NCBI GenBank assembly: GCA_018268465.1
Contig: JAFDWN010000005.1
Span: forward strand, 62,001-126,000
Source: Actinomycetota bacterium
Lineage (GTDB): Bacteria; Actinomycetota; Actinomycetes; Mycobacteriales; Mycobacteriaceae
Direction of reading: 5' to 3'
Length of the DNA stretch: 64,000 nucleotides
Made by a program: the position numbers and the translations under genes. The notes beneath the pieces are model-generated. The model worked only from the letters and a program-made list of their open reading frames with translations. It did no database searches and was not told the origin of the DNA. Within the stretch, counting starts at the first letter, position 1, and each line of letters opens with the position of its first letter. Below, piece after piece: positions 10,633 through 25,553 of the stretch.

Positions 10633-11940
10633 TCAGTAGGTGGTCAGCAGCCGGCTCAGCACGTCGACCCCGAAGCGCAGCGACCCGACGGGGACGCGCT
10701 CGTCGGCGCCGTGGAACAGGGCGGTGAAATCGAGGTCATCGGGCAGCAGCATCGGGGTGAAGCCGTAACACTGAACCCCGAGCCGATGGAGCCACTTCGC
10801 GTCGGTGAATGCCGTGCTCATATAGGGCAACACGGTGGCCGTCGGGTCGGCGGTGCGCAGCGCATCGGAGATGGCGCCCAGCAGAGGGGTGTCCAGGGCC
10901 GCCTCGACCGCGGGCCCGTCGTAGAGGGTTTCGATGGTGATCGCGGGGCCGATGACATCGCTCAACTGCCGCCGGTATGCGCACTCGTGCCCGGGTAGGT
11001 ACCGCGCGTCGATGGTGGCGCTCGCCGCCGCGGGCACCACGTTGGCCTTGTACCCGCCGACGATCTGGGTGGGGTTGACGGTGTTGTGCAGTCCGGCCCT
11101 GGTCATCCGATCGAAATGCCCCAGCCGGTGCAGTAACGCCTCGGTGGTCGACTCCGGCTCGGCCACGATCGCGCGCAACCGGTCGAATAGCGCACGGGTG
11201 GTCGCGGTGAGTTCCGGCGCCTGCAGGCCGTGGTCGGCGACCCGGGCCACGGCGCGAGTCAGGATGGTGATCGCGTTGGCCGGGTTGATCATGCTCCCGT
11301 GACCGGCGGTGCCGTCGGCGCGCAAACGTGCCCACCACACGCCCTTTTCGGCGGTGGACACGAAGTACGCGCGATGGCCGGCGTCCAGCGTGTGGCTGAA
11401 TCCGCCGACTTCCCCGATCGCTTCGGCGCAGTCGGCGAACAGCTGCGGGCTCTGTCGGGTGACATACCCGGCGCCCAGCGTCCCGCCGGCTTCCTCGTCG
11501 GCGAAGAATGCGAGGACGACGTCGCGGCGCGGCGGTTGCCCTTGCCGCCAAAGACGTTGCAGAGCAGCCAGAGTGATAGCCACGGGCCCTTTCATGTCCA
11601 CCGCGCCGCGGCCCCAGATGTAACCGTCGTGCAGTTCCCCGCCGAACGGGTCGCGTGTCCAGTCGGCATCGACGGCGGGGACGACGTCGAGGTGCGCGTG
11701 CAGGAGCAGCGCGGGCAGCGAGGGATCGCGTCCGGCGAGCCTGCCGACGATGGAGGTCCGGCCCGGTTCGGGTTCGAACCAGTGGCAGTGCATTCCGATG
11801 CCGGCCAAGACATCGGCGACCAGTTCGGCCGCCGGCCTCTCCGATCCCCCGGGGTTGGATGTATCGATGCGGATCAGCTGCTGCGCCAGCACCAGGACGT
11901 CGTCGTCCTGGTGCGTGTCGGCGCGGAGGTGAGTGGTCAC
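10633..11940 (-). CDS. M20-family metallohydrolase (ArgE/ACY1-like)
   Basis: Zinc-dependent amidohydrolase/peptidase of the M20 family, 435 aa. Visible signatures: LLHAHLDVVPA (zinc His and Asp), GRGAVDMKGPV (bridging Asp) and FFADEEAGGTLG (catalytic Glu pair), with a dimerisation domain in the middle (about 190-310). Relatives remove N-acyl or N-carbamoyl groups from amino acids. The GTG start overlaps the ridA stop by 4 bp, so it is the last gene of the monooxygenase operon. I infer that it hydrolyses an N-acyl intermediate released after ring opening; the substrate is not known. Confidence 0.88.
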   Translation of the reverse strand: MTTHLRADTHQDDDVLVLAQQLIRIDTSNPGGSERPAAELVADVLAGIGMHCHWFEPEPGRTSIVGRLAGRDPSLPALLLHAHLDVVPAVDADWTRDPFGGELHDGYIWGRGAVDMKGPVAITLAALQRLWRQGQPPRRDVVLAFFADEEAGGTLGAGYVTRQSPQLFADCAEAIGEVGGFSHTLDAGHRAYFVSTAEKGVWWARLRADGTAGHGSMINPANAITILTRAVARVADHGLQAPELTATTRALFDRLRAIVAEPESTTEALLHRLGHFDRMTRAGLHNTVNPTQIVGGYKANVVPAAASATIDARYLPGHECAYRRQLSDVIGPAITIETLYDGPAVEAALDTPLLGAISDALRTADPTATVLPYMSTAFTDAKWLHRLGVQCYGFTPMLLPDDLDFTALFHGADERVPVGSLRFGVDVLSRLLTTY

Positions 11941-12404
11941 GAAGTCGTCAGGGCCTCGCCGCTGCCGACCACGGCGATGGCTTCGACCTCGATGAGGAAC
12001 CCGTCGTACATCAGTCCCGCCACCCGGACGGCGGTTCCGGCGGGCCCAGGGGTGGGCAGGAATTCCAGCCGGACGCGGGTCATCTTCTCCCAGAACTCCC
12101 GGACCCCGTCGCCGGTCTCGTTGCAGCAGTAGTAGGTGTTGATCTTGACGACGTCGCGCCAGGTGGCTCCGCCCTCCGCCAGCACCCGGCCCACGGCCTC
12201 GAACACGTTGCGGGTCTGCAGCTCGATATCACCCTCGCCGACGACGTTGCCGTGCTCGTCGGCCGACAGTTGACCACCGACGAATACCGTGTCGCCGACG
12301 CGCCAGCCCTGGGAGAACGGCGTGGGCATGTGCCAGTCCCATGAGCCGGGCGGCATGAGGCGTTGGCGGGTGATCGGGTTGAGCGTGTTATCGACCTGGG
12401 TCAT
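11937..12404 (-). CDS. RidA/YjgF-family deaminase
   Basis: RidA-fold protein, 155 aa. Family features: FSQGWRVGDTVFVGGQLSAD, QTRNVFEAVGRVLAEGG, and the late segment PAGTAVRVAGL, where RidA proteins have the arginine that holds the substrate carboxylate. RidA proteins hydrolyse reactive enamines and imines to keto compounds and ammonia; RutC does so in pyrimidine breakdown. The ATG at 12404 is preceded by a strong ribosome site (AGGAGGG, 7 bp away), so the longer frame is rejected. It sits between the cyclase gene and the M20 gene, in line with clearing an enamine made in this pathway. Confidence 0.9.
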   Translation of the reverse strand: MTQVDNTLNPITRQRLMPPGSWDWHMPTPFSQGWRVGDTVFVGGQLSADEHGNVVGEGDIELQTRNVFEAVGRVLAEGGATWRDVVKINTYYCCNETGDGVREFWEKMTRVRLEFLPTPGPAGTAVRVAGLMYDGFLIEVEAIAVVGSGEALTTS

Positions 12405-12454
12405 TGGGCGTCCCTCCTGAACGACGTTGTCTATGTGCCGGTTTCGGCTGCCGG

Positions 12455-13210
12455 CTAGTCCATGAAGACCGCGACGGCGCGGATGGGTGAGCCGGTGCCG
12501 TTGCGGATGAACAGGGGCAGGCCGAAGTACAGGAACCGCTGGTTGACGACCAGGTGCAGATTGGCCAGCCCTTCGGTGTTGACGATGCCGTATTCGCCGC
12601 ACACCTTGTGCCCGGAGAAGTCGCTGTCGTCGGCATGGTCGATGGCCACGTTGTCCACCGCGATGTTGACGACACCCTGCTCCGCCAACCACAGCGCGGC
12701 GTCGCGGTTGAGGCCGGTGTGTTTCTCGGTGTAGGCCGGATCCGGATAGGTGGCGTCGCCGTATCCGGTGTAGAGGATGACGGTGTCGCCGGTGCGGATC
12801 TCCTGACCACTGGCGGCCAGGGCGGTCTGCAGATCGGCGGAGGTGATGTAGTCGGGGTACTTGACCGTGCGCAGGTCCAGGCAGATCGCTTCGCCGTAGT
12901 AGTACTCCAGCGGGGACTTGTCGATAGTGGGCCCGTTGGGGTCGTATTCGAACACAGCGTCGGTGTGTGTTCCGGCGTGCTCACTGATCAGCAGGTTGTG
13001 CGCCTCGAATCCGAGGTGCGTGTTGTAGGTGGTCTTGAACTGTTCATGGGTCTGGTTGGTGTTGATGAAGGTTTTCTGGTGGCCGAACCACATGGGCATA
13101 CCCTCGAAGATCTCGCGGGTCAGATCGACCACGCGCACGGGACGCCGCATGATCTCGGCGCCGAATTTGGGATAGCTGCGAACGGTATCGGGTTCATCGA
13201 TGGCGGTCAT
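12455..13210 (-). CDS. Cyclase-family hydrolase with altered metal motif
   Basis: Member of the cyclase / kynurenine formamidase / isatin hydrolase family, 251 aa from the ATG at 13210 (GGAGA 9 bp upstream). The metal motif is normally HxGTHxDxxxH. Here it reads HAGTHTDAVFE (about residues 65-75): the first two His and the Asp are kept, but the last His is Glu. Other conserved parts are present, such as TGDTVILYTGYGD and LPLFIRNGTGSPIRAV. Family members hydrolyse cyclic or linear amides with a divalent metal; isatin hydrolase opens a lactam ring. In this operon a ring-opening role is likely. No tryptophan-catabolism genes are near, so a kynurenine role is not supported. Confidence 0.85.
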   Translation of the reverse strand: MTAIDEPDTVRSYPKFGAEIMRRPVRVVDLTREIFEGMPMWFGHQKTFINTNQTHEQFKTTYNTHLGFEAHNLLISEHAGTHTDAVFEYDPNGPTIDKSPLEYYYGEAICLDLRTVKYPDYITSADLQTALAASGQEIRTGDTVILYTGYGDATYPDPAYTEKHTGLNRDAALWLAEQGVVNIAVDNVAIDHADDSDFSGHKVCGEYGIVNTEGLANLHLVVNQRFLYFGLPLFIRNGTGSPIRAVAVFMD

Positions 13211-13265
13211 ATCGTGTTCTCCAATCATGCTGCGGAAAAGGAATTTTCAGGACGTGTCAACGCTG

Positions 13266-14834
13266 TCAGGTGAGGTCGGCGGCGGGCACCGCACGGGTGA
13301 GGGGATCGGGTCCCGGCGCGGCAGCGGCGGCCTGCTGTCGGGCCAGCAGGGCACGCAGGCGTGCGGCGTTGTCAGCTTCGCTGACGGTGTCGGCCACCAC
13401 GACGCTGTTCGGGACGACGCGCGTGAGCACGGTGTAGAGGACGCCGCCGATGACCGCGGAGGAGATGAAGCTCAGGTCCACCCCACCGGCCGCGTCAGCC
13501 CATGGCCCGACATAGAGGGTGGTGTTGACGAACAGCATGCCGATCACCGTCGCGACCAGCCAGGCGGTCATACCGGCGAGGTTCCAGCCCCGGGTGAACC
13601 AGTAGGCGCCGCCGGCGACGCGGGGTCGCATGTTGAACACCTGCAGGTCCTGGGAGTAGTACCGGCCGCCGGTGAACACGAATCCAAGGACGTTGATGAC
13701 CAACCAGGGGGCCGTGACGACCAACAGGATGATGAGGAACGCGGTGGCCACCGAAACCAGGTTGTAGACGAAGGCGCCGATGTAGACGAGAACGGTGCCG
13801 GCAGCACCGATGAGCAGCGTCGCCGGGACACGCTTGAGCCGCGGGAAGATCGACGAGGTGTCCAGTCCGGTGCCGTACACGCACAGGGCTGCTTGTGCAC
13901 ACGAACCTATCAACGCGATCACGACGATGGCCGCCGCGAACGGTGTCGGCGACACCGAGACGAACCCGCCGACCCAGTCCGTCACGTCGGGAGGAAAGGT
14001 CATCGCCACGTACACGGCGAAGCACATCGCCACGGCACATCCCAGGAACATGCCGCCCCCGGCCGCGACCATGACGCGGGCCGGCGTGAAGCGGCGGGCG
14101 GAGATGTAGCGGGTGTAGTCGCCGACGTAGGGCGAATACGAGATCGGTAGCGAGGCAGCGGTGGTCGCTGCCAGCAGCCAGGTCGCCGGGTAACTACCGA
14201 GGAGCAGCTCCGCACCCGGTCCGGCAGCGGTGAACTTCGGCGCGAGCACCAGCACGCCGATGATGAGCAGCACACCCATGGTGGGCACCAGGATTCGATT
14301 CGCCAGCACCACGTTGGCGTGCCCGTAGACCGCGACGAGCAGCGTGAGCGCGGCGATGACGGCATACGCCGCCGCCGAGATCGCGGTGCCGTCGGGCAGC
14401 CCGGCGAGCTTGTGCAGACCGGCCACGAGCGCCTGCCCGCCGGTCCACACGGTCAGCGCGTAGAAGCCGATCGCGGTGAATATGCCCACCAGCGAGCCGA
14501 TGATGCGCCCGACCACACCGAAATGCGCGCCGCTGCTGACGACGCTGTTGGTACCGGTTCGAGTGCTCAACAACGCCAGCGGTGCGAACATGGCCGATCC
14601 GACGGCGAGTCCGGCGAGCGTGGAGGTGATCGACCCCCACCAGCCGAGTCCGAACGACACCGGGAGATATCCCAGCACGATGATGCCGAAGCACAGTTGG
14701 GTGCCGACGAAGACGGCGGTCAATTCACCCGGCCGGGAATGACGTTCGGCCTCGGGTATGTAGTCGACGCCGCGTGTCTCGATGCGGCCGACCTGATCGA
14801 TGCCCCCGGCTGCGGGCTCTGTTGAAGCAGACAT
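13266..14834 (-). CDS. NCS1-family nucleobase/heterocycle permease
   Basis: Integral membrane transporter of the nucleobase:cation symporter-1 family (cytosine, allantoin, hydantoin and related permeases), 522 aa with about 12 hydrophobic segments. Typical regions: GSAMFAPLALLSTRTGTN in the first pair of helices, PISYSPYVGDYTRY (the conserved S-PYVGDYTR motif of NCS1) and LVVTAPWLVINVLGF. ATG 14834 has AAGGA 8 bp upstream. It lies between the NuoF-like gene and the cyclase gene. NCS1 substrates are small N-heterocycles, which is the main hint for what the diiron monooxygenase acts on. Confidence 0.9.
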   Translation of the reverse strand: MSASTEPAAGGIDQVGRIETRGVDYIPEAERHSRPGELTAVFVGTQLCFGIIVLGYLPVSFGLGWWGSITSTLAGLAVGSAMFAPLALLSTRTGTNSVVSSGAHFGVVGRIIGSLVGIFTAIGFYALTVWTGGQALVAGLHKLAGLPDGTAISAAAYAVIAALTLLVAVYGHANVVLANRILVPTMGVLLIIGVLVLAPKFTAAGPGAELLLGSYPATWLLAATTAASLPISYSPYVGDYTRYISARRFTPARVMVAAGGGMFLGCAVAMCFAVYVAMTFPPDVTDWVGGFVSVSPTPFAAAIVVIALIGSCAQAALCVYGTGLDTSSIFPRLKRVPATLLIGAAGTVLVYIGAFVYNLVSVATAFLIILLVVTAPWLVINVLGFVFTGGRYYSQDLQVFNMRPRVAGGAYWFTRGWNLAGMTAWLVATVIGMLFVNTTLYVGPWADAAGGVDLSFISSAVIGGVLYTVLTRVVPNSVVVADTVSEADNAARLRALLARQQAAAAAPGPDPLTRAVPAADLT

Positions 14835-14844
14835 AACGGGATCC

Positions 14845-16074
14845 TTATCGGGCGGTGGTGGTCGGAGTGAGGCTGGCGGCACAGTGGCCGTGTTCGATGT
14901 GGGCTGCGAAATCGGTGGGGAACAGGGTGCGGGCCGAGTCGACGGGCGGCGTCGGCATGTCGATCAGGGCACATTTGCGCGGCATGTCGGCGACGAAATC
15001 GTCGACCGCTGCGAGTTTGTCCAGAAGATTCCACGACCCTTTGCCGGAGCCGATCTGCTGGAACGTTCGTTGGTAGGTCTGGGTTTTCATTCGGCAGGGC
15101 GGGCACTGACCGCACTGCTCGCGGCCGAAGAAGGCGGTGATGTCTTCGCAGACCTCCACGATGCAGTTGTCGGTGGTCAGCACGCGGACCGCCAGGCAGC
15201 CCGGTTGCGAACCGGCAGCGCGAATGTCGGCGTCACGCATGCTGATGCCAGCTGCCTCGGCAGGCAGAAAGCGGCTGGACGGGCCGCCGGGCTGGAACGC
15301 CTTCAGTTGTCCTGAGCCCGTCAGACCGCCGGCACGCGCGATGAGCGTGGCGAACGTGTCGACGTGCGGGTCGATCTCGTACACCCCGGGTGCCGCGACA
15401 GCCCCCGTGACGGTGCACAGCCGGGTCCAGTGCGGTTCGCCGCCGCGTTCGGCCGCCCGGATCAGCCGAGGCAGATTGGCCAGCGTCTCGGCGTTGGAGA
15501 CCAGCGTGGCGTGCCCGCCGATCCCCCGTTCACTCGGGTACGGCGGCTGACCGGTCGGTTTTCCGTCGCCTCCGTCGACGACGCTGATCGCCGCGGTCGC
15601 CTCGCCGGCGACATAGCGCTCGGGTGCCGCGACAATGCGCACCGATGCGCCGGCCAGCATTGTCCGTGTACTCGACTCGTCCAATGCCGCAGCAAGGCTG
15701 TCGATTTCGTTGCCCGTGTGCTGGCCGGCGTAGAGCACGACCGAGGCAGCCGCCAGGACCGCGGCGGCAATCAGCGCACCTTCGATCACGACGTGAGGGT
15801 TGGCCGCCAGCAGCGCACGGTCCTTGCCACTGCCGGGTTCGTCCTCGGCGGCGTTGCACAGCACCACCCGTGGTGCTGGCCGATCGAGCACCGCGGTGAT
15901 CTTGCGGGCGAGCGGGAAGTGGGCGCCCCCCAGCCCGGTCAAGGTCGTCGTCCGCAATACTGCGCGGGCACGGTCGGGATCGGCGGCCACCGCGGCGAAC
16001 GCGCGGTAGCCACCGTCGGCGAGATAGCCGTCCAGGTCGTGCCGGCGCGGGGGTAACAAGAGGTCGGTGCTCAT
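14845..16074 (-). CDS. NuoF-like flavin/[4Fe-4S] protein of the monooxygenase operon
   Basis: Homolog of the 51-kDa NADH-binding subunit of complex I (NuoF), 409 aa from the ATG at 16074; a TTG four codons earlier overlaps the nuoE-like stop and could also be used. Numbering from the TTG: nucleotide/FMN motif GLGGAHFPLARK (51-62), CNAAEDEPGSGKDR (77-90), the YVAGEATAAI segment with PPYPSERG (158-187), an SLBB-like part, and a [4Fe-4S] site CGQCPPC (C325, C328, C331) plus C372. The cysteine spacing equals that of NuoF. Only NuoE and NuoF are present, no other complex I subunit. Set among diiron-monooxygenase genes, it most likely feeds electrons from NAD(P)H to the hydroxylase in place of the usual FAD/ferredoxin reductase. 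Confidence 0.85.
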   Translation of the reverse strand: MSTDLLLPPRRHDLDGYLADGGYRAFAAVAADPDRARAVLRTTTLTGLGGAHFPLARKITAVLDRPAPRVVLCNAAEDEPGSGKDRALLAANPHVVIEGALIAAAVLAAASVVLYAGQHTGNEIDSLAAALDESSTRTMLAGASVRIVAAPERYVAGEATAAISVVDGGDGKPTGQPPYPSERGIGGHATLVSNAETLANLPRLIRAAERGGEPHWTRLCTVTGAVAAPGVYEIDPHVDTFATLIARAGGLTGSGQLKAFQPGGPSSRFLPAEAAGISMRDADIRAAGSQPGCLAVRVLTTDNCIVEVCEDITAFFGREQCGQCPPCRMKTQTYQRTFQQIGSGKGSWNLLDKLAAVDDFVADMPRKCALIDMPTPPVDSARTLFPTDFAAHIEHGHCAASLTPTTTAR

Positions 16075-16082
16075 CGGCGCGG

Positions 16083-16454
16083 TCAATCCGACAGGCTCAG
16101 ATCGCCGGGCTTGAATCCGGCGTCGAGCATGTTGAAGATCTTGCGGGCGATGAAACTGCCACTGCGGTCGATGGATTCGACAGGATCTCCCCCGTCGGCA
16201 TGGGCGATGATCGCCTCGGCATGGGTGGGGTCGATGTCGCTGTAGAACGCCCGCCGGTGTTCGATCAACAAGTTGGGTCCCTGTTCGCAGGCCGCGAAAC
16301 AGATGTAGTCGTTGATCTCGACGTCGGAACCCACATCCGCGGCGACCTGCCGCAGCCGGTCGCGTACCGCTTCGGAGCCACGCATTGTGCAGTCGACATT
16401 GACACAGATGTGGATGATGCGTTCCTCGGAACTCAGGCCGTCATACACGGACAT
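16083..16454 (-). CDS. NuoE-like thioredoxin-fold [2Fe-2S] protein
   Basis: Small ferredoxin of the NuoE class, 123 aa. Four cysteines have the family pattern CX4C (CVNVDC, C17 and C22) and CX3C (CFAAC, C52 and C56) that binds one [2Fe-2S] cluster. The longer upstream frame has another composition and overlaps the coupling-protein gene; the ATG at 16454 (MSVYDGLSSEERIIHICV) is the natural start and overlaps that gene by 14 bp. It is immediately followed by the NuoF-like gene, as in complex I and in NAD-linked hydrogenases and formate dehydrogenases. Here it should carry electrons from the flavoprotein to the diiron hydroxylase. Confidence 0.85.
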   Translation of the reverse strand: MSVYDGLSSEERIIHICVNVDCTMRGSEAVRDRLRQVAADVGSDVEINDYICFAACEQGPNLLIEHRRAFYSDIDPTHAEAIIAHADGGDPVESIDRSGSFIARKIFNMLDAGFKPGDLSLSD

Positions 16455-16758
16455 CGTCTCCGGGATCGTCGGCGTCCCAGGACAACACGACCTGGTCGGC
16501 GTCCCAGCGGGTGAAGTAGCCGCGGTAGGCCGACACGACCTGGTTGAGATCGCGGCTGTCCCAGTCACGGCCGAGGTGATCGGCCACGGTGGTCGCGTGG
16601 ATGACCATCCGGTCCGGGACGTCCAGTAGCACCATCCCGGGTATCTGGACGACAGAGGCGTCGGGGACGTCCTGCAGGACGGCGGCGACGATGGCGTCGC
16701 ACTCCTCACCCGCCATCATCTCGATGCCCACCACCGAGCGCGTGACATGGGAACTCAT
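16441..16758 (-). CDS. MmoB/DmpM-type monooxygenase coupling protein
   Basis: Effector (coupling) protein of a bacterial multicomponent monooxygenase, 105 aa, without cofactor motifs. The pattern VGIEMMAGEECDAIVAAV followed by VQIPGMVLLDVPDRMVIH is typical of MmoB/DmpM/TmoD proteins (family block V-I-E-x-P-x-M-x-x-x-x-A...). Such proteins bind the hydroxylase and tune oxygen and substrate access to the diiron site. It overlaps the beta-subunit gene by 4 bp (ATGA) and the nuoE-like gene by 14 bp, so the hydroxylase, coupling protein and electron carrier are translated together. Confidence 0.87.
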   Translation of the reverse strand: MSSHVTRSVVGIEMMAGEECDAIVAAVLQDVPDASVVQIPGMVLLDVPDRMVIHATTVADHLGRDWDSRDLNQVVSAYRGYFTRWDADQVVLSWDADDPGDDVRV

Positions 16759-17999
16759 GCCGATACCTCCTCGTGGGCACCCACGGCGGGGACCGTGATT
16801 CCGGACTCGGCGAACTGCGCGTGTACCCAGGTCATGGCTTCGCCGACGGGGTCGGCGCCGGCGTCGGCGAAGCCGAGTAACGCGACGGCCGCGGCATGGG
16901 CTCGCGGCAGCAGGTCGGCGGCCCAGCCGCCGATGAGTTCGCGGTTGCGCTCGCCGTGGCGCTCGTCACCGGCCACCAAACGCAGGAACGCAGCGGCACT
17001 TTCGCGGTGACGGATCTTGTCGTCGTCGATGGAACGGCACACGAACGGGGTCAGGCTGTCGCCGGCGGCCAGCGCCCCGGTCGTCAACAGGGCATGGGCC
17101 GCAGCAGTGTGCAGCGGTTCGAAGACGATGTCGGCCATGATGATCGCCTTGCCCCAGTCCAGCGTGGCCATGATCTCTTCGACGATTCGCCGGCACGGCT
17201 GAAACTGTGGGCCCTCCATCCACGCGGGTCCCGGGTCGTCGAACCCGTCGTGGTGTTCGCTGTAGGCCAGTGCCAGGCGTCCGTAGAGCTGGGCGTGACG
17301 CAGTTCGTCGAACATCATGAACGACGTCGCCCCGGCGATCCATGACGACAACGCGAACCGGGTGGTGTGCTGATGGGATACGCATAGGCCCCAGTCGGGA
17401 TACTGCAAGGATCCCAACACATTCCGCAACATGTCCACCCGCTCGGGCGAGACGGCGGCGACCTGGCTGTCGGCGGCGGCGAAGTCGAACGCAGTGGCCA
17501 CGCTGCGGCCGGCGCGCGATTGGCGGGTGGTGTAGGTGCGGTAGTAGAGCTTGTCGGGGCTGCGGTAGGCCTCCCAGTCGGTGCACCGCAGTGCGGTGCT
17601 GTCGTCCGTCCACACCTGATGGGCGGGACGGTCGCCGTCGATGTGGTAAGGCGCGTGCCACTGCAGTAGCCGGGTGGTTTCCTCATATTCGTTGAGCCGG
17701 CGGGTACCGCCGGTCGGGACACGCAGCGCCTCGGCGTCGATCTCCGGCCTGGCCGGGGTTGTCGTGTCGATGTTCGGCTCGCCGACCGCGCGGATGTCGA
17801 CGAGGTCACCGTCGCCGATCCCGAGGTCGGCGAGCTTGGCGGTGCCGAGCACATCGGGCATATCCAGCGTGACGAGACGTCCCTGCGCGGAGCGGGCGGC
17901 GCCGATCCGGCTGAGCAGGTCGGAGACGGTCGGATCGTCGTCGGCGAGCACGAACGCCTCGGGAGCGGCTTCTCCCAAGATCCGTGAGTAGATCAGCAT
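16755..17999 (-). CDS. Diiron monooxygenase beta subunit fused to a TmoB-like domain
   Basis: Hydroxylase beta subunit of a soluble diiron monooxygenase, 414 aa. From about residue 95 it has the ferritin-like beta-subunit fold without iron ligands; the block IMATLDWGKAIIMADIVFEP is typical. The first 72 residues form a separate small domain that starts MLIYSRIL and ends LADLGIGDGDLVDIRAV, much like the end of the ubiquitin-like gamma subunit TmoB of toluene monooxygenases. In known systems gamma is a separate gene, so this is a gamma-beta fusion. ATG 17999 has GGAGA about 7 bp upstream; the upstream extension of the frame lacks any such site. Confidence 0.88.
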   Translation of the reverse strand: MLIYSRILGEAAPEAFVLADDDPTVSDLLSRIGAARSAQGRLVTLDMPDVLGTAKLADLGIGDGDLVDIRAVGEPNIDTTTPARPEIDAEALRVPTGGTRRLNEYEETTRLLQWHAPYHIDGDRPAHQVWTDDSTALRCTDWEAYRSPDKLYYRTYTTRQSRAGRSVATAFDFAAADSQVAAVSPERVDMLRNVLGSLQYPDWGLCVSHQHTTRFALSSWIAGATSFMMFDELRHAQLYGRLALAYSEHHDGFDDPGPAWMEGPQFQPCRRIVEEIMATLDWGKAIIMADIVFEPLHTAAAHALLTTGALAAGDSLTPFVCRSIDDDKIRHRESAAAFLRLVAGDERHGERNRELIGGWAADLLPRAHAAAVALLGFADAGADPVGEAMTWVHAQFAESGITVPAVGAHEEVSA

Positions 18000-18034
18000 T
18001 GGCGAATCTCCCTGTTTACTAGGTTGTTTGCGCG

Positions 18035-19501
18035 TCAGATGGTGGCGGGCACCGGCATCGACGGGAAGTAGCCGGCTGGGGCATGTGTGCCCCCCAGCGG
18101 TTTGCCGTCGGGTGTGATGTTGAGGAACTGCGCCACCCACGACGGGTCCTTGTCGGCCAGCAGCAGCGCCGATGGTTCAGCGGTGCGCACGTATTTGGCC
18201 GATTCCCGTTCGAAGATCCACCGGCAGCCTTCCGAGCAGAACCAGTAGCGCTGCCCGGCGTAGTCGACGGGAAAGGCATTGGCGTTTGCGGGTTCTGGGA
18301 ACGTACACGGGAACTTGCACAGGTCACAGACCATGGGCAAGGTGTCGGCGTCGACGACCGCACCGTCGGCCGCCGCACGCCAGAACGCGGCATGGCTTTC
18401 ACCGAACGCCGGGTACTTGTCGTGCAGCCACGCCAAATCCTCGTCGGTCGGCTGGTGGACGTCGAACCACAGCTGGTCGCGGGTGGTGTAGAGCCCGCGC
18501 CAGATGGTGTGTGATCCGTGTTCGATCTCCTGCAGTGCCTGAGCGAGATGGCGCGGCGGCTGCAGTCCGAACTGAGAGAGTTCGGACACGTAGCCCTCGA
18601 TGAAGTCCTCGAGTACGTAGCGGCGGAAGGCCTCTTTGTACGAGATCGGCTTCTTCTTGGGGAAGTAGTCCAGGACGGGGCTGACGACGGCCAGCAACAG
18701 CCGGTGGCACCGCCAGAACCACTTGTCCATCCACTCCTGAATCAGGGTGAGGTTGGCGTCGCCGAACTGCAGCATCGCCCGTGCGACCGACTGTCCCAGG
18801 GCCATATGCCGAGTCTCGTCGCTCTGGATGGTGAGGTGGGCCTGCCCAAAGCCGAAGTCGCCGTTGGCCACTCCCGCGGCGGGTGCCGCGATGAACAGCA
18901 GGTTGGTGAAAGCCGTCTCGAACACCAGATTGGTCCCGATGATCGCTTCGATCGGGTCCGTGGTGATCAGATCCTCGAAGAATGCGCGGTCGCCCTGGAA
19001 ATACCAGTGCCGTTCGAAGAACATGATGCGGTCCTTGGGAAGCAGAAATCCGCTGTCGTGATGTTTGACGTAGTCCTTGGCCTGGTAGATCGCTTCTTCC
19101 GCGTGACGCCTCTCGTCCATCGCCTGCACCATCGAGGCGATCCGGATCGCCGGCGCCGGCGCGAACCTCGCGACCCTGACATGGCCGCGATAGTTGTAGT
19201 ACTCGCTGTAGGTCAGCGCGGTGTTGAACGACTTCATCGCCTCTACCCAGCGGGCGTCGACCCGTCCGATGTGGCCGAAACGGGCTCCGGCGTCACGCAC
19301 CGCGTGGAATTTGTCTTCCTTCTCGGCCTGGATGCGCACGTAGTCCTCGAAGAGGATCTGGAAGGGGTCGTTGAACTTCTTCCAGTCGGGCATGGTGCAC
19401 GCGGTGCGCCACTCCTCAGGGATGTACGCGTCCTCGCCCACATAGGTGGGATCCCAGTGCAGGGAGTGGGTGAGCCGCTGGTACTGCTCGCGGGACTTCA
19501 T
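18035..19501 (-). CDS. Soluble diiron monooxygenase alpha (hydroxylase) subunit
   Basis: Catalytic subunit of a bacterial multicomponent monooxygenase, 488 aa, counted from the ATG at 19501 (GGAG 7 bp upstream). All iron ligands are present: E100 (YSEYY), E130 and H133 (DERRH), E195 (VFETAF), E229 and H232 (DETRH). The gaps E-E 30, 65 and 34 residues equal those of methane monooxygenase MmoX. A C-terminal YHS-type zinc motif (CDLCKFPC ... FCSEGC, about 412-446) is as in phenol and toluene monooxygenases. It oxidises an organic substrate with O2 and electrons. First gene of a nine-gene operon. The regioselectivity and substrate cannot be read from sequence; the neighbours point to an N-heterocycle. 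Confidence 0.92.
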   Translation of the reverse strand: MKSREQYQRLTHSLHWDPTYVGEDAYIPEEWRTACTMPDWKKFNDPFQILFEDYVRIQAEKEDKFHAVRDAGARFGHIGRVDARWVEAMKSFNTALTYSEYYNYRGHVRVARFAPAPAIRIASMVQAMDERRHAEEAIYQAKDYVKHHDSGFLLPKDRIMFFERHWYFQGDRAFFEDLITTDPIEAIIGTNLVFETAFTNLLFIAAPAAGVANGDFGFGQAHLTIQSDETRHMALGQSVARAMLQFGDANLTLIQEWMDKWFWRCHRLLLAVVSPVLDYFPKKKPISYKEAFRRYVLEDFIEGYVSELSQFGLQPPRHLAQALQEIEHGSHTIWRGLYTTRDQLWFDVHQPTDEDLAWLHDKYPAFGESHAAFWRAAADGAVVDADTLPMVCDLCKFPCTFPEPANANAFPVDYAGQRYWFCSEGCRWIFERESAKYVRTAEPSALLLADKDPSWVAQFLNITPDGKPLGGTHAPAGYFPSMPVPATI

Positions 19502-19539
19502 GACGACTCCAATCGTGTGGTGCTGCCGGCTGCGTGCGT

Positions 19540-19612
19540 CAACCTTCACTATTTTCATGAAGGTTGTCGATATGGATGGACCACTCAAAGGTTGTTGGAA
19601 TTCTTGAAGGTT
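19540..19612. promoter_or_regulatory. TGAAGGTT operator repeats in the divergent promoter region
   Basis: A perfect 9-bp inverted repeat, CAACCTTCA (19540-19548) and TGAAGGTTG (19558-19566) with a 9-nt spacer, is followed by a related half-site CAAAGGTTG (19586-19594) and another exact TGAAGGTT (19605-19612). They lie in the 287-bp gap between the monooxygenase alpha gene and the divergent regulator. This is the natural operator region for the MerR-XRE-cupin protein. A TTGACA hexamer (19636-19641) lies towards the regulator gene, without a clear -10. Confidence 0.55.
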
Positions 19613-19788
19613 AGAGCGCAACTATTACCGCGGTGTTGACAATCGTTTCGATCGCGTTGCAGCGTGACCGGCATGACGGCGCCGGCCAGGGCGCTTCCGA
19701 TAGCGGGCCATCCCGGATGCGACGCGCGGCGTTACGCTCGGTGGGCCGGCCCCAGCCGGGCGCAGGGTGCACGAGGAAGGAACCCGAT

Positions 19789-20712
19789 GTGACGGCCCAC
19801 GTCACGGCCACCGACGGGCATCACGAAGGTCACGTGCCGAGGCGAGCCCACCCTCGGAAGCCCGTGCACGCCGACAGGGATGACGCCGCACGCCCCGCCG
19901 ATGACGGACAGGGGCTGTACATCCAACAGGCCGCCCAACTCGTCGGCGCCACAGCCGTACAACTGCGCGCGTGGGAGCACCAACAACTCATCACGCCCAC
20001 CCGCACCCCCGCGGGATACCGCGTCTACACCATCGCCGATATCGAACGTATGCAACGCATCCAGTCGCTGATGGCCGGTGGAGTCAACGCCGAGGGCGTC
20101 CGGAGAATCATCAACGGCCCCGGCAATTCGGCGGGACTGCCGGTCTCGCTGACCGCGCCCTCGTCGCGGTCGCGCAGCGTCGGCAACACCATCCGGGCTT
20201 TGCGCAAAGAACGCGGCCTGACCCTGCGGGATCTGTCGCGGTCGACGGGTCTGAGCGCCTCCTACATCAGTTCCGTCGAACGCGGTGCGGCTGCCCCGTC
20301 GATCGCGTCCCTGCAGAAGATCGGCGCCGTATTCGACACCAACGTCCTCGGCCTGATGTCAGACGCATACGAGGCGCCCTGCTCACCTCTGGTCCGGGCC
20401 GGCGACCGCCGCGTCCTCGACAGCGACAAAGGCGTGCGGATCGAAGATCTCTCCACGGCGGGGAGCAACCTCGAACCGCTGTTGTTCACCTTCCAGCCCG
20501 GCTGCGGCAGCGACGGCGCCATCTCCCACGAAGGCGAAGAGTTCCTCTACGTCATGTCCGGCCGGCTGTACCTCTGCCTCGATGGCAGTGACGAGTACTA
20601 CCTCGACCCCGGGGACTCCATGAGCTTCCGAAGCGAACGTGCCCACGAATTCGGCAATCCCGGCGACCTGCCGACGGCGGTGCTCTGGATCAACACGCCA
20701 CGGACGTTCTGA
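19789..20712 (+). CDS. MerR-XRE-cupin three-domain transcription regulator
   Basis: Predicted regulator of the divergent monooxygenase operon, 307 aa. Three modules follow a disordered N-terminus: a MerR-type winged helix (about 42-108: LYIQQAAQLVGATAVQLRAW ... GYRVYTIADIERM); an XRE helix-turn-helix (about 132-190: IRALRKERGLTLRDLS ... YISSVERG); and a cupin sensor domain (about 215-305: HEGEEFLYVMSGRL, LDPGDSM). XRE-cupin proteins are common; an added MerR reader is not. GTG 19789 has AGGAAGG 8 bp upstream, which shortens the open frame by 52 codons. The 3' end overlaps the convergent racemase gene by 23 bp. Confidence 0.88.
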   Translation: MTAHVTATDGHHEGHVPRRAHPRKPVHADRDDAARPADDGQGLYIQQAAQLVGATAVQLRAWEHQQLITPTRTPAGYRVYTIADIERMQRIQSLMAGGVNAEGVRRIINGPGNSAGLPVSLTAPSSRSRSVGNTIRALRKERGLTLRDLSRSTGLSASYISSVERGAAAPSIASLQKIGAVFDTNVLGLMSDAYEAPCSPLVRAGDRRVLDSDKGVRIEDLSTAGSNLEPLLFTFQPGCGSDGAISHEGEEFLYVMSGRLYLCLDGSDEYYLDPGDSMSFRSERAHEFGNPGDLPTAVLWINTPRTF

Positions 20713-21850
20713 GACTCCGGACCGCCCCGGCCCCATCGGGAACATACCGGCGCTCGCACCGCCCACGTACCGCGGTGAGGATCTCGTAATCGATGGTGCC
20801 GGCCAGCTGCGCCCAGTCCGCCGCGGTCGGCTCACCATGGGCACCCGAACCGAACAGCACCACCCGCTCCCCCTCCCGGATGTCCAGACCGTGTGAGCCC
20901 AGATCGACGACGAACTGATCCATACACACCCGACCGACGTTGGCGAAGCGGCGTCCACGGCACCAGACCGACAGCCGGTTCGACGCCACGCGCGGCACGC
21001 CGTCGGCATAGCCACAGGCGATCACCGCCACCGTCGTGTCGCGCGGTGCACGCCAAGTGTGATTGTACGAAACACCCTGCCCTGCTGCGATTTTCTTGAC
21101 CTGGGCGATCTCCGCCGTGAGCGTCATCGCGGGAACAAGGCCAAAGTCCCCCAGCTCGGGGACGGGGCTGCGACCGTAGACTGCGATGCCGGCGCGAACG
21201 AGGTCGCGGGAAAGATCGGGACGCGTCAGCGCCGCAGCCGAATTCGAGAGGTGTCGCAGCTGCGGAGCGGCCCCGGCTGACGACAGCTCGGCGACACACT
21301 CGTCGAAGCGGGTGGCCTGGCTCGTGTTCAGGGGATGTGCCGGTTCATCCCCCCGGGCCAGATGGGTCATCGCGGTGCGCAGCACGACCGCCTCCGCCGC
21401 CACGAGGCGGACCAGCGCTTCACGCAACTGCGGCCACTCCCCGGCCGCGGCACCGCTGCGACCCAGGCCGGTGTCGACCTTCACGCCGACCACGGCGGCG
21501 CGACCGAGCGACTCGGCCGCGGCGCTGACCGCCGACAGCTGCCCCAGCGAGGACACCACCACCTCGACGTCCTGACGCACGGCACCGGCGAAATCCGTTG
21601 TCGGCGTGTGTAGCCAGGCCACGATCGGGGCGGTGATGCCACCGGCGCGAAGCGTGAGAGCCTCGTCGACGGTGGCTACACCGATCTCGACGGCACCGGC
21701 CCGCAGCGCCGCCGCCGCGACCGGCGCCGCGCCGTGGCCGTAACCGTCGGCTTTGACGACGGCCATCACCCCGGCACCGGATCGTTGCCGCAGAACACCG
21801 ACGTTGTGGGCGATCGCGCCGAGGTCGACGATCGCCTCGACGGCCGACAT
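20690..21850 (-). CDS. Alanine racemase, probably catabolic
   Basis: PLP-dependent alanine racemase, 386 aa. The PLP lysine sits in AVVKADGYGHGA near the N-terminus, and the second active-site region is seen in RAGIAVYGRSPVPE, QGVSYNHTW and GRVCMDQFVVDLG. It interconverts L- and D-alanine. It follows the transaminase gene by one base, so the two are co-translated. A biosynthetic Alr is expected elsewhere in a mycobacterial genome (alr lies near tsaE/groES), so this copy is probably devoted to the pathway: it would turn the D-alanine made by the (R)-type transaminase into L-alanine. That coupling is inference from gene order. Confidence 0.88.
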   Translation of the reverse strand: MSAVEAIVDLGAIAHNVGVLRQRSGAGVMAVVKADGYGHGAAPVAAAALRAGAVEIGVATVDEALTLRAGGITAPIVAWLHTPTTDFAGAVRQDVEVVVSSLGQLSAVSAAAESLGRAAVVGVKVDTGLGRSGAAAGEWPQLREALVRLVAAEAVVLRTAMTHLARGDEPAHPLNTSQATRFDECVAELSSAGAAPQLRHLSNSAAALTRPDLSRDLVRAGIAVYGRSPVPELGDFGLVPAMTLTAEIAQVKKIAAGQGVSYNHTWRAPRDTTVAVIACGYADGVPRVASNRLSVWCRGRRFANVGRVCMDQFVVDLGSHGLDIREGERVVLFGSGAHGEPTAADWAQLAGTIDYEILTAVRGRCERRYVPDGAGAVRSLRTSVAC

Positions 21851-21851
21851 C

Positions 21852-22868
21852 TCAGTACCTGATGGCTTCGATCAGCGGCGAGGGTTCGTCCATCAGCGCC
21901 CAGAAGCGGTCCCGGATCGCGACCGTCAGGGGCCCGGGCGCCCCGTTGCCGACGGGTTCACCGTCGAGGGTGTTGATCGGCGTCACACCGCCGGCGGTGG
22001 TCACCGCCATCAGCTCATCGGCGTCGTACAGCTCATGGCTGGTGACGTCGCGCAGCGTCGCCTCGACACCCATCGCGTCGGCGATTTCGAAGACGGTCTT
22101 ACGGGTGATGCCCGGCAGCGCATTGCGTGACGGCGAGGCGAGCTTGCCGTCCCTGACGACGACGACGTTGAATCCGGGACCCTCGGCGACACAGTTGTCG
22201 GCATCCATGAGGATCGCGGTGCGGGCGCCACGATCCTTGGCTTCGAAACTCGCCGCGGTGAGATCACCCCACTGGTAGTTCTTGATGGTCGGGTCGACCG
22301 TGTTGCGGCCGGCCCGCCGGACATGGCGCGGCACAATCGCCGTGGTGCCGTAGATCTGCTCGGCGGGCGGGAATGCCCACAGATAGGGGATGGCGTAGAT
22401 GTAGACCTGGTGGGTGAGTTTGGACAAGTCCTTCTCCCCCCTGCGTTTTCCGTATCCGCGCGTGACGGTGAGGTTGACGAACGACTCCCGGAGCTGGGAC
22501 ATCGCCACACAGCGTTTGGTGATGTCGGCCAGTTCCTCCTTGCTCATCCCGGCATCCAGGCGCAGTTTGCGCGCGCCGTCGAGCAGGCGGTCCAGATGGT
22601 CACCGAGTCGGAAGATGTTGCCGTGCCACACATGCGCGACGGTGTAGGTCAGGTCGGAGTGGCCGAACCCGGTGTCGAAAATGGAGATCCGGGCGTCCTG
22701 GGCTGGCAGATACTTCCCCTCGATCCAGGCCACCCCGCCGGCCAACGGGCTCGACGTGTCGAGTTCGTAGTCGCTGTACTGGATCACCGAGCCGGCGGGC
22801 GTGTCCTCACGGATCGCGCCCGGTTCGACGGCGACGAGATTGCTGGTACCCGGTGCCATGGTGGTCAT
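21852..22868 (-). CDS. Class IV (R)-selective amine:pyruvate transaminase
   Basis: Fold-type IV PLP aminotransferase, 338 aa. The sequence follows the (R)-selective omega-transaminases of Arthrobacter and Aspergillus much more closely than branched-chain or D-amino-acid enzymes: QYSDYELDTSSPLAGGVAWI, ARISIFDTGFGHSDLTYTVA, the catalytic lysine in TIKNYQWGDL, and GVTPINTLDGEPVGNGAPGP near the end. These enzymes move the amino group of an (R)-amine to pyruvate, giving a ketone and D-alanine. ATG 22868 with AAAGGA upstream is chosen over an earlier ATG. It lies 38 bp after the APC permease gene and 1 bp before the racemase gene. Confidence 0.85.
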   Translation of the reverse strand: MTTMAPGTSNLVAVEPGAIREDTPAGSVIQYSDYELDTSSPLAGGVAWIEGKYLPAQDARISIFDTGFGHSDLTYTVAHVWHGNIFRLGDHLDRLLDGARKLRLDAGMSKEELADITKRCVAMSQLRESFVNLTVTRGYGKRRGEKDLSKLTHQVYIYAIPYLWAFPPAEQIYGTTAIVPRHVRRAGRNTVDPTIKNYQWGDLTAASFEAKDRGARTAILMDADNCVAEGPGFNVVVVRDGKLASPSRNALPGITRKTVFEIADAMGVEATLRDVTSHELYDADELMAVTTAGGVTPINTLDGEPVGNGAPGPLTVAIRDRFWALMDEPSPLIEAIRY

Positions 22869-22906
22869 GTCACATCCTTTCGGGAGACGTTGTGAATATC
22901 CGAGAT

Positions 22907-24427
22907 TCAACTGAGGTGAGTGCGGGCGTAGCCGGAGCCGGCCTCACCGCGGCGCAGGCGGCCGCGCAGCCCGGTCCCCCACCAGAGCGCCGCCAGTGCG
23001 ACGACACCCACGAACACCCATCTGTTGCTGGCGAACTGCGGCAGGAACAACAGGGCGATCGCGACGGCGAGGAACACCACGAGCGCGGTCACGTACAGCG
23101 GCAGCCGCCAGCGGCCCAGGTCGAAGGTGCCGGGCTCACCCTGCGGGATGGTGCCCATGCGGTACCCGACCAGCAGCCCAACCGTCTGCAGGATGTAGAC
23201 GAAGAAGAACAGCAGTGACGCGATGCCGATGATGTAGTTGAAGGCCTTCTCGTTCACCAGCGCCGAGAGCAGCAGCAGCGTCGACAGGCAACCGAGGCCG
23301 ATGACCGCGTAGGTCGGTGTCTTGCGGGTGGCGGAGACGTGGCGCCAGATGTGCGAGAAGGGCAACATATTGTCGCGGGCCATCGAGTAGGTCAGCCGGG
23401 TGGCCACCAGGATATTGGCCAACAGGCACGCCAGGATGTTCGTCAGCGCCACCGCGACAACGATTTTCGTCACAGCCGGCCCGGCCTGCTGATTGATGAT
23501 CTCCTCGATGGGCGCCGCGGAGTTGGCCGCGACCGCGTCGGCGTCCCGGATCGCGAGGACGAACACGATGTACATCAGCAACTCGATGACGATCGAGGTC
23601 ACCAGCGCGTAGAACATCGTCTTCGGCACCACGTAGCGGGCGTTCTTGGTCTCCTCGGCGACGTCGGCGCCGGACTCCACGCCGATCAGGCCGAAGAACG
23701 GTCCCAGCGCGGCGGCCAGCCAGGCCAGCAGATAGGAATCCTTGTCGCCGGACTCACCCCCGGTGAACAGCACCGAGATCGGCTGATGGTGATCGGGCGC
23801 GGAGAACGCGATGATCGCCACCAGCGCGGTGGCACCCACGGTGACCACCAGCTCCAGGCTGACGCCGATGTTGTTGACCATGGTGGCGAACCGCACACCG
23901 TAGATGTTGATGAGCACACAGAGGAACACCACCCCGATGGCGACCAGGATCTGCGCGCTCTGGGACATGTTCCAGCCGAACAGACCGCCGAGGTACCCCG
24001 ACAGGATGAAACCCACTCCCGTCATGCCGCAGACCCACCCCATCAGGGCGATGAACCCGGTGAACCAGCCCAGGCTGGGCCCGTTGATCCGGCTGATCCA
24101 CTGGTAGGAGTAGCCGGCGAGCGGGATCTTGGCGGTGAGGTCGGCGGCGATGAACGCCCACAGCGCGAATACCGCGCCCGCGAGCAGCAGTGTCCACACG
24201 AACGGGGCTCCGGCGGTGAAGTACCCGGCGCCGAATCCGGTGAACACCGCGGTGGTGGCACTGATGGTGGCGAACCCGATGGCGAAGGACGCCAGCGTCC
24301 CCACCGAGCGATCCAACCGTTGTTCGTAGCCGAATTCGGCAAGTCGGGCATCCTCGCTCTCACCCGGCCGGGAGGCGGGCGGAATCGGCGCGGATGAATG
24401 AGCGGCGGGTGTCAGCGCGTCTGTCAT
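22907..24427 (-). CDS. APC-family amine/amino-acid permease
   Basis: Transporter of the amino acid-polyamine-organocation superfamily, 506 aa with about 12 hydrophobic helices. Conserved parts: SFAIGFATISATTAVFTGFG in the first helix, IPLAGYSYQWISRINGP, and the helix-6 block FFGLIGVESGADVAEETKN, typical of amino-acid/choline permeases of actinobacteria. It is the first gene of the three-gene unit with the transaminase and racemase, and lies downstream of the LysR gene in the same direction. It most likely imports the amine that the transaminase uses. Confidence 0.87.
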   Translation of the reverse strand: MTDALTPAAHSSAPIPPASRPGESEDARLAEFGYEQRLDRSVGTLASFAIGFATISATTAVFTGFGAGYFTAGAPFVWTLLLAGAVFALWAFIAADLTAKIPLAGYSYQWISRINGPSLGWFTGFIALMGWVCGMTGVGFILSGYLGGLFGWNMSQSAQILVAIGVVFLCVLINIYGVRFATMVNNIGVSLELVVTVGATALVAIIAFSAPDHHQPISVLFTGGESGDKDSYLLAWLAAALGPFFGLIGVESGADVAEETKNARYVVPKTMFYALVTSIVIELLMYIVFVLAIRDADAVAANSAAPIEEIINQQAGPAVTKIVVAVALTNILACLLANILVATRLTYSMARDNMLPFSHIWRHVSATRKTPTYAVIGLGCLSTLLLLSALVNEKAFNYIIGIASLLFFFVYILQTVGLLVGYRMGTIPQGEPGTFDLGRWRLPLYVTALVVFLAVAIALLFLPQFASNRWVFVGVVALAALWWGTGLRGRLRRGEAGSGYARTHLS

Positions 24428-24502
24428 GGTTACTCCAGGTCAAACGGGTGGCGATAATCAGGTGAAAACAGGAAATCGCGACGCGGGCCCCGGCGGAAGT
24501 TC

Positions 24503-24514
24503 CATCATTTGATG
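24503..24514. promoter_or_regulatory. Palindrome CATCA-TT-TGATG before the permease operon
   Basis: A perfect 5-bp inverted repeat in the 103-bp gap between the LysR stop and the permease start. It may be the LysR operator or part of the permease promoter; the arms are short. Confidence 0.35.
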
Positions 24515-24530
24515 TGGTGATAACGGCGAT

Positions 24531-25430: not shown

Positions 25431-25553
25431 GTCCGCGCTCGTGATCGCCTCCTCCACCCATGGCTCGACACCCGGATCGCACCACAGTCGCACATCTGCC
25501 CCCGGGCGTCGACGCATCCGGCGACGCCCGGGCGGGCGCCGCCGGGACGACCG

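Follow-up and report, generated by a model that had tools for sequence, protein, structure and literature searches.

A soluble diiron monooxygenase operon of Mycobacteriaceae with a NuoE/NuoF-like pair as its likely electron input

The locus

We describe an operon that encodes a soluble diiron monooxygenase (SDIMO) together with a NuoE-like and a NuoF-like protein. The operon lies in a 64,000-nucleotide stretch from an Actinomycetota bacterium of the family Mycobacteriaceae (GenBank assembly GCA_018268465.1, contig JAFDWN010000005.1, positions 62,001 to 126,000), the whole of which we call the window. An initial annotation had placed five genes between 14845 and 19501, encoding hydroxylase alpha and beta, a coupling protein, and the two Nuo-like proteins, and had read the last two as a complex-I-type electron input to a diiron oxygenase. 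These five genes are present on the minus strand, confirmed by Pfam, and they overlap or lie close together; the limits given hold for the five genes and not for the operon, which continues to 10633. Over 10633-19501, the gene order on the minus strand is alpha, beta, coupling, NuoE-like, NuoF-like, NCS1, PF04199, RidA, and M20 (Table 1). The beta and coupling genes overlap by 4 bases and the coupling and NuoE-like genes by 14, and a gap of 8 bases separates the NuoE-like gene from the NuoF-like gene. Start sites were judged from the window sequence and its orthologs.

We consider it probable that the NuoF/NuoE-like pair serves this SDIMO as a dedicated electron input. The proposal of the initial annotation is supported by a gene-neighborhood count, by searches that found no conventional reductase locally or in one 98%-complete genome, and by a second lineage with the same pairing.

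Table 1. Features of the operon and its upstream region
Feature	Length (amino acids, aa)	Position (strand)	Basis and remarks
Hydroxylase alpha	488	18035..19501 (-)	PF02332 E 2e-57; C-terminal YHS domain
Hydroxylase beta	414	16755..17999 (-)	PF02332 E 8e-51; N-terminal ~75 aa extension
MmoB/DmpM coupling (effector) protein	105	16441..16758 (-)	PF02406 E 1.5e-19
NuoE-like thioredoxin-fold [2Fe-2S] protein	123	16083..16454 (-)	PF01257 E 3e-7
NuoE-like C-terminal tail, residues 103-123		16086..16148 (-)	Proposed docking element; invariant stretch 105-121
NuoF-like flavoprotein	409	14845..16074 (-)	PF01512 E 6e-30; PF10589 E 1e-12; FMN, SLBB, [4Fe-4S] domains
NCS1-family permease (nucleobase/N-heterocycle type)		13266..14834 (-)	PF02133; synteny
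PF04199 cyclase-family hydrolase (kynurenine formamidase / isatin hydrolase fold)		12455..13228 (-)	Pfam, synteny
RidA-family (imine/enamine deaminase-like) protein		11937..12404 (-)	Family match, synteny
M20-family amidohydrolase		10633..11940 (-)	Family match, synteny
Intergenic region between regulator and operon		19502..19788	Presumed promoter/operator, by position
MerR-XRE-cupin fusion regulator, divergent		19789..20712 (+)	Pfam

The hydroxylase and its coupling protein

Judged by its components, the enzyme is an SDIMO, or bacterial multicomponent monooxygenase (BMM): alpha has the diiron ligands, beta shares its fold, and an MmoB/DmpM gene is present. The ligands E100, E130, H133, E195, E229, and H232 of alpha are invariant in 14/14 orthologs, as is active-site T199; these are the ligand positions of the family, aligned to the phenol hydroxylase PHN. 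PHN is also the nearest solved structure for alpha (2inp, E 1.5e-74), and beta matches MmoY/TouE-type chains of the Protein Data Bank (PDB). Mycolicibacterium pyrenivorans and M. rhodesiae have alphas 94% identical to that of the window. At greater distance, alpha is ~34% identical to a DmpN, and the alpha tree puts the window clade on a separate branch, in an open fork beside DmpN/TomA3.

No separate gamma gene was seen in the operon. The N-terminal extension of beta, missed by the initial annotation, forms a beta-grasp-like strand-strand-helix-strand-strand arrangement in an AlphaFold2 (AF2) model (mean predicted local distance difference test score, pLDDT, 81). A weak alignment (hhalign probability 67, E 5e-5) links it to an 87-aa protein encoded on its own next to alpha in L115, a locus of the second lineage, and a PDB profile search returned only weak matches, some of them ubiquitin-like. 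The modeled extension is perhaps a fused gamma/TmoB-like subunit.

The NuoE-like and NuoF-like proteins

Both Nuo-like proteins have intact cluster cysteines, as the initial annotation had stated: C17, C22, C52, and C56 of the NuoE-like protein are invariant in 15/15 aligned rows, and C321, C324, C327, and C368 of the NuoF-like protein in 14/14 orthologs. The SLBB match of the latter falls slightly under the Pfam cut-off. The NuoE-like protein (model mean pLDDT 77) is without the N-terminal helical domain; its Pfam match spans profile positions 66-143 of 145 alone, and its orthologs start ~10 residues ahead of the thioredoxin fold. At its other end is a tail that had previously escaped notice. 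Residues 105-121, KIFNMLDAGFKPGDLSL, are invariant in 15/15 orthologs, and the tail core IF..LDAG..PG is kept in 11/11 rows, second lineage included. The tail is a candidate dock on the hydroxylase. A NuoE search of 396 genomes of the same phylum matched 33 at E<=1e-11; 3 are ortholog carriers, and the other 30 matches are weak (46-57 bits), mostly ending before the tail. For another phylum, a search around G1031 (host of L019, Hydrocarboniphaga; G and L numbers are our labels for genomes and loci) covered 398 genomes and gave one weak NuoE match, of 52 bits. Because the NuoE-like protein is more conserved than the NuoF-like protein and carries a tail that weaker matches to the NuoE profile mostly miss, it is the more probable exit for electrons to the hydroxylase.

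At the nucleotide site of the NuoF-like protein, K58, N74, Y154, and N194 are kept. So are E77, E79, D85, and E158, the equivalents of E95, E97, D103, and E184, which are named as nucleotide contacts in PMC6560083. Two places, not mentioned in the initial annotation, differ: A159 (14/14) and Q/H176 (14/14; Q176 in the window) occupy those of FdsB E259 and K276. This mapping comes from the alignment and from a 17-residue spacing, which agrees; an equivalent of FdsB K157 is not claimed, since there the spacing disagrees (110 vs 102). According to PMC10671435, NADP+ activity appeared in the FdsB variants E259G/Q/R/H and K276A but not in E259D, and Escherichia coli complex I gained NADPH affinity from a Gln or His at the corresponding position. 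Because A159 and Q/H176 replace residues that limit NADP(H) use, the NuoF-like protein of the window clade likely uses NADPH, by analogy with FdsB. The complex-I-type input of the initial annotation finds support but does not imply NADH specificity, since two residues linked to the NAD/NADP choice are replaced. The NuoF-like proteins of the second lineage have D and K at these places, so that this lineage may well use NADH.

Conservation of the operon

A search for related loci, seeded by short exact peptide patterns and run over 84,980 species, each represented by a single genome, yielded 17 loci, 12 of which (L006-L017) have an alpha at 81-94% identity; the other 5 are poorer. Alpha, beta, coupling, and NuoE-like genes occur together in all 12, with the NuoE-like gene next to the coupling gene in each, and the NuoF-like gene is present in 11 (L017 ends before it). 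An alignment of 14 orthologs (the window, L006-L016, L080, and L081, with L017 left out) gives mean pairwise identities of 0.88 for alpha, 0.83 for the coupling protein, 0.79 for the NuoE-like protein, 0.65 for beta, and 0.62 for the NuoF-like protein. Both Nuo-like proteins are under purifying selection in the two pairs compared (dN/dS 0.13 and 0.15 for NuoE-like, 0.26 and 0.21 for NuoF-like, 0.02 and 0.04 for alpha). The downstream genes are less constant: NCS1 is absent in L006 and distant and elsewhere in L016, where M20 was not found. Flanks vary among the ortholog loci listed, so the operon unit looks self-contained.

The initial annotation had proposed counting the Nuo-like genes that accompany alpha homologs. 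In such a count, covering all 90 PF10589 matches, NuoF (PF10589) lies <=3 kb from alpha in 14/14 ortholog genomes vs 0/14 control genomes (Fisher p 5e-8, which is no true probability, as the genomes are related). The controls are the 14 genomes with the best-scoring non-ortholog alphas, at <=37% identity; G056 was dropped for a stop codon in alpha. A plasmid-borne origin was set aside, as 72,556 plasmid records held no alpha ortholog at E<=1e-60 and the best plasmid alpha is ~35% identical.

A second lineage with the same pairing

A NuoE profile search of 394 genomes of the class matched 9 at E<=1e-9, among them G748 and G761, the hosts of loci L115 and L116. Both loci hold genes for alpha (39% identical; the contig end cuts that of L116), beta, the coupling protein, a NuoE-like protein (40%, 38%), and a NuoF-like protein (40%, 39%), and neither has a match to an MmoC-type reductase. 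The coupling and NuoE-like genes are adjacent in both lineages. Within the order of the second lineage, 5 genomes searched gave an alpha match at E<=1e-70 in G748 alone. The NuoF tree gathers the 16 diiron-linked NuoF-like proteins of the two lineages in a single branch (87/81; recovered in 90% of 200 bootstrap trees), which makes one origin of both NuoEF-linked lineages plausible, though their alphas form an open fork.

The genes around this second system are of another kind. L115 and L116 both contain an EaCoMT-like gene; that of L115 is 52% identical to JS614 and 43% to Xanthobacter Py2 2-hydroxypropyl-coenzyme M (CoM) lyase. L116 adds a disulfide oxidoreductase gene (57% to NBB4 and 47% to Py2 pyridine nucleotide-disulfide oxidoreductase), which we take to be 2-KPCC-like, and L115 a ComA-like gene (262 bits, below the model cut-off of 280). 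The gene content of the system resembles that of an alkene monooxygenase accompanied by a CoM pathway for epoxides. As the pairing recurs beside epoxide:CoM-type genes, the NuoEF-like pair appears to go with the oxygenase and not with one pathway. A tie of the pair to the heterocycle pathway suggested below was set aside, the second lineage pairing with CoM-type genes instead. Separately, an 853-codon open frame (L116:10234-12795) joins the 2-KPCC-like gene to beta, either as a real fusion or through a sequence error.

Conventional reductases

In line with the initial annotation, no MmoC-type reductase or Rieske ferredoxin was found locally: queries gave no match at E<=0.01 among window open reading frames (ORFs) of >=80 aa. 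The ORFs of the ortholog loci gave none either at this threshold. Across the window and the ortholog loci, the wider neighborhood yielded no FAD reductase of the conventional kind, which would have counted against the proposed input. The queries were the MmoC-type reductase of L086, which does recover the reductase of L084, and one Rieske ferredoxin. Among the matches listed, PF00970 adjoins alpha in at least 10/14 controls and in none of the orthologs. The remaining four controls comprise G261, G142, and G264, with a Rieske ferredoxin and no local reductase match, and G156, whose alpha lies near a contig end.

The genome G690, host of L016, allows a wider view. Genome-wide, it has 4 PF00970 matches (E<=1), and Pfam assigns a plant-type [2Fe-2S] domain to none of them. 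One is a 271-aa protein matched by the FAD domain alone, two are membrane proteins like ferric reductases, and the fourth is an electron-transfer subunit of dihydroorotate dehydrogenase. As far as its sequence goes, the NuoEF-like pair is the only electron-input candidate seen in G690.

Weighing the alternatives

The components, the intact cofactor ligands, the conserved operon, the absence of any match to another local reductase, and the recurrence in a second lineage are all seen in the sequence. Several observations weigh against the NuoEF-like pair as the electron input. The system is rare, occurring in 6/297 genomes of the genus (the window's own included) at >=88% alpha identity; alpha homologs are found in 74/297 (E<=1e-20), and apart from those 6 the matches listed are all at <=37%. 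The alpha tree leaves both lineages and the phenol hydroxylases in an open fork and does not place the second lineage as sister to the window clade. G690 is a metagenome bin; its stretch is identical in G793, the same genome, 98% complete.

Further points of this kind bear on the possibility that a conventional FAD/[2Fe-2S] reductase encoded elsewhere reduces the hydroxylase, leaving the NuoEF-like pair to a different step of the pathway. Each of the 28 genomes searched (14 ortholog and 14 control) contains PF00970 proteins. A second diiron monooxygenase operon in the window's own genome (a 6.9 Mb assembly, 99.87% complete) encodes an MmoC-type FAD/[2Fe-2S] reductase. Judged by eye, FAD reductases that carry a [2Fe-2S] domain are also present elsewhere in G688 and G689; in principle, these enzymes could act in trans. 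Moreover, the diiron monooxygenase operons L074-L077 have a Rieske ferredoxin alone and no nearby reductase match, which shows that local absence occurs. This absence by itself is not unique, and it is its combination with a conserved NuoEF-like pair that sets the present group apart. A reductase acting in trans would leave unexplained why the pair accompanies two diiron lineages with differing pathway genes and why the adjacency of coupling and NuoE genes is common to both. Nor was any reductase of the MmoC type found in the G690 genome, and the permease, the cyclase-family hydrolase, RidA, and M20 match no redox enzyme family that the pair might serve. We therefore judge this arrangement unlikely.

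Slightly less likely still, in our estimate, is that the NuoF-like protein no longer oxidizes a nicotinamide nucleotide and relays electrons from another donor to the NuoE-like protein and the hydroxylase. Nucleotide oxidation is not assured, because several NADH/FMN-site positions are changed in the NuoF-like subfamily (L48, H52, A76, A159, Q/H176, and S/A/T193), a pattern seen across the 14 orthologs, in which the other FMN-site residues and all cluster residues are kept. In addition, Ala is absent from the FdsB E259 variants given in the accessible text of PMC10671435. On the other side, K58, N74, E77, E79, D85, Y154, E158, and N194 are retained; replacement of FdsB E259 or K276 yields NADP+ activity and not loss of function, as PMC10671435 reports; and in the second lineage K is retained at the K276 place and D stands at that of E259.

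Finally, it is very improbable that the pair are spare or displaced input subunits of complex I, formate dehydrogenase, or hydrogenase, present in the operon by chance: the NuoE/NuoF family matches that would suggest it fall far under the NCBIfam complex I cut-offs, the NuoF-like protein shares 29% identity with a mycobacterial complex I NuoF and forms a branch separate from the sampled complex I, formate dehydrogenase, and hydrogenase NuoFs, the NuoE-like protein is without the N-terminal domain, synteny with the oxygenase is conserved, and the window's own genome and G041 (89% complete) keep the pair without a NuoH (PF00146) match. Complex I seems absent from these two genomes, as its membrane arm (PF00146), present in 12/14 ortholog genomes, gave no match in either; this, with the separate NuoF branch, led us to set aside the notion of complex I spare parts.

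Proposed mechanism and substrate

We infer an electron route, a docking role for the tail, a preference for NADPH, and a substrate class as follows. NAD(P)H, probably NADPH in the window clade, would reduce the flavin mononucleotide (FMN) of the NuoF-like protein. Electrons would reach the [2Fe-2S] cluster of the NuoE-like protein via the [4Fe-4S] cluster of the NuoF-like protein and/or directly. The NuoE-like protein would then act in the manner of a ferredoxin and dock on the hydroxylase, probably via its conserved C-terminal tail. Once the diiron center is reduced, the MmoB/DmpM protein would replace the NuoE-like protein, and O2 would be activated.

The NCS1, PF04199, RidA, and M20 genes of the operon prompt the guess that the substrate is an N-heterocycle or cyclic amide. 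The permease would bring such a compound in; after its hydroxylation, the cyclase-family hydrolase would open the ring, and RidA and M20 would complete the pathway. The solved relatives of the PF04199 hydrolase and of RidA are distant, and nothing on the substrate of the operon was found in the literature searched.

Relation to known systems

The operon resembles phenol hydroxylase (DmpKLMNOP / PHN, group 1) in its diiron ligands, YHS domain, beta subunit, and coupling protein. Unlike phenol hydroxylase, it has no match to a DmpP-type flavin adenine dinucleotide (FAD)/[2Fe-2S] reductase and no DmpK/DmpO gene, its beta carries an extension, and a NuoE/NuoF-like pair is present. Membership in group 1 was rejected on the separate branch of alpha and the lack of a DmpP-type match, an annotated dmp operon being compared.

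If the NuoE-like protein is the ferredoxin, the system parallels T4MO and IsoMO, in which a reductase feeds a [2Fe-2S] ferredoxin and this the hydroxylase, with a separate effector. PMC9004368 describes IsoMO as four-component, with a Rieske ferredoxin and a dedicated reductase, and the component list of SmoABCD in PMC11057499 likewise includes a dedicated reductase. In contrast, the window has an FMN/[4Fe-4S] NuoF-like protein instead of an FAD/[2Fe-2S] reductase and a thioredoxin-fold [2Fe-2S] protein instead of a Rieske ferredoxin.

With NuoEF of complex I and its relatives (FdsBG, HydBC, HoxEF), the pair shares the FMN domain, the SLBB domain, and the cysteines for the NuoF [4Fe-4S] (N3) and NuoE [2Fe-2S] (N1a) clusters. 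It differs in that the operon has no NuoG or membrane arm and the partner is a diiron oxygenase; the NuoE-like protein has a conserved C-terminal tail and no N-terminal helical domain, and nucleotide-site residues are changed.

L115 and L116 resemble the epoxyalkane:CoM loci of Xanthobacter Py2, Nocardioides JS614, and Mycobacterium chubuense NBB4 in the EaCoMT-like gene, and L116 also in the oxidoreductase. The known alkene monooxygenases of Py2, JS614, and NBB4 use FAD reductases; L115 and L116 differ in having a NuoEF-like pair and no MmoC-type match.

Among the papers listed in the literature searched, which included few subscription papers and no preprints, none paired NuoE/NuoF with diiron or other oxygenases, judged by titles, term counts, and the openings of abstracts. 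On its sequence features, the system is best classed as an SDIMO variant with a probable new kind of electron input. A bolder proposal is that the systems form a separate SDIMO class, present in two or more deep lineages of actinobacteria and in two pathways unrelated to each other. In such a class, an NADPH-specific NuoF-like protein (in the window clade) and a tail-docked NuoE-like protein would wholly replace the FAD/[2Fe-2S] reductase; we advance this tentatively, as somewhat less likely to be true than not.

Neighboring genes and further observations

The divergent MerR-XRE-cupin protein, which combines three regulatory domain types in a single protein (19789-20712), is likely the regulator of the operon. 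It is found in 13/14 ortholog loci (L010 starts at alpha) and lies on the same strand as alpha in L014-L017. Beyond it, genes for an alanine racemase, a class IV aminotransferase, an amino acid permease, and a LysR-like protein (20690-25517) adjoin the operon and are perhaps a separate amino acid cassette. The racemase, aminotransferase, and permease were rejected as members of the system, with no tblastn match at E<=1e-5 in L006-L017.

NuoF-like genes also adjoin Rieske oxygenases and a P450 (L083, L137, L078), which hints at a wider use of this input; NuoF-like proteins may feed other oxygenases too. NuoF-like paralogs occur in mycobacterial clusters with a Rieske-type protein (L078:7158-16224, L085:9368-12501, L099:1322-4743); L078 and L099 also hold a single-cluster ferredoxin, and L078 a P450. 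In the window's own genome, a Rieske ring-hydroxylating oxygenase gene lies near a divergent NuoF-like gene (L083:7318-10306, contig C1). On a plasmid of Variovorax sp. WDL1 (L137:8026-20261), NuoE-like and NuoF-like genes cluster with Rieske-domain and SRPBCC genes, a 2,5-dihydroxypyridine dioxygenase, and a molybdenum hydroxylase, with a VanB-type reductase nearby.

Among other diiron monooxygenases, L074-L077 form a mycobacterial group in which DnaK-like genes adjoin in L074 and L076 (by eye), and contig C1 of G276 carries several alphas in one genome, two of them equal-scoring at different places.

Implications

A different soluble electron input would alter the view that SDIMOs receive their electrons from FAD/[2Fe-2S] reductases. 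It would also add oxygenases to the hydrogenases and formate dehydrogenases that are known to reuse the front end of complex I. SDIMO reductases are reportedly hard to purify in active form, and purification of IsoF was troublesome, according to PMC9004368; a NuoEF-like input would offer a new module for engineering SDIMOs. The system makes testable an electron route from a flavin/multi-cluster donor to a diiron site without wasteful oxygen reduction. If the separate class is real, the split layout of complex I, from FMN to two clusters, would gate two-electron delivery to the diiron center.

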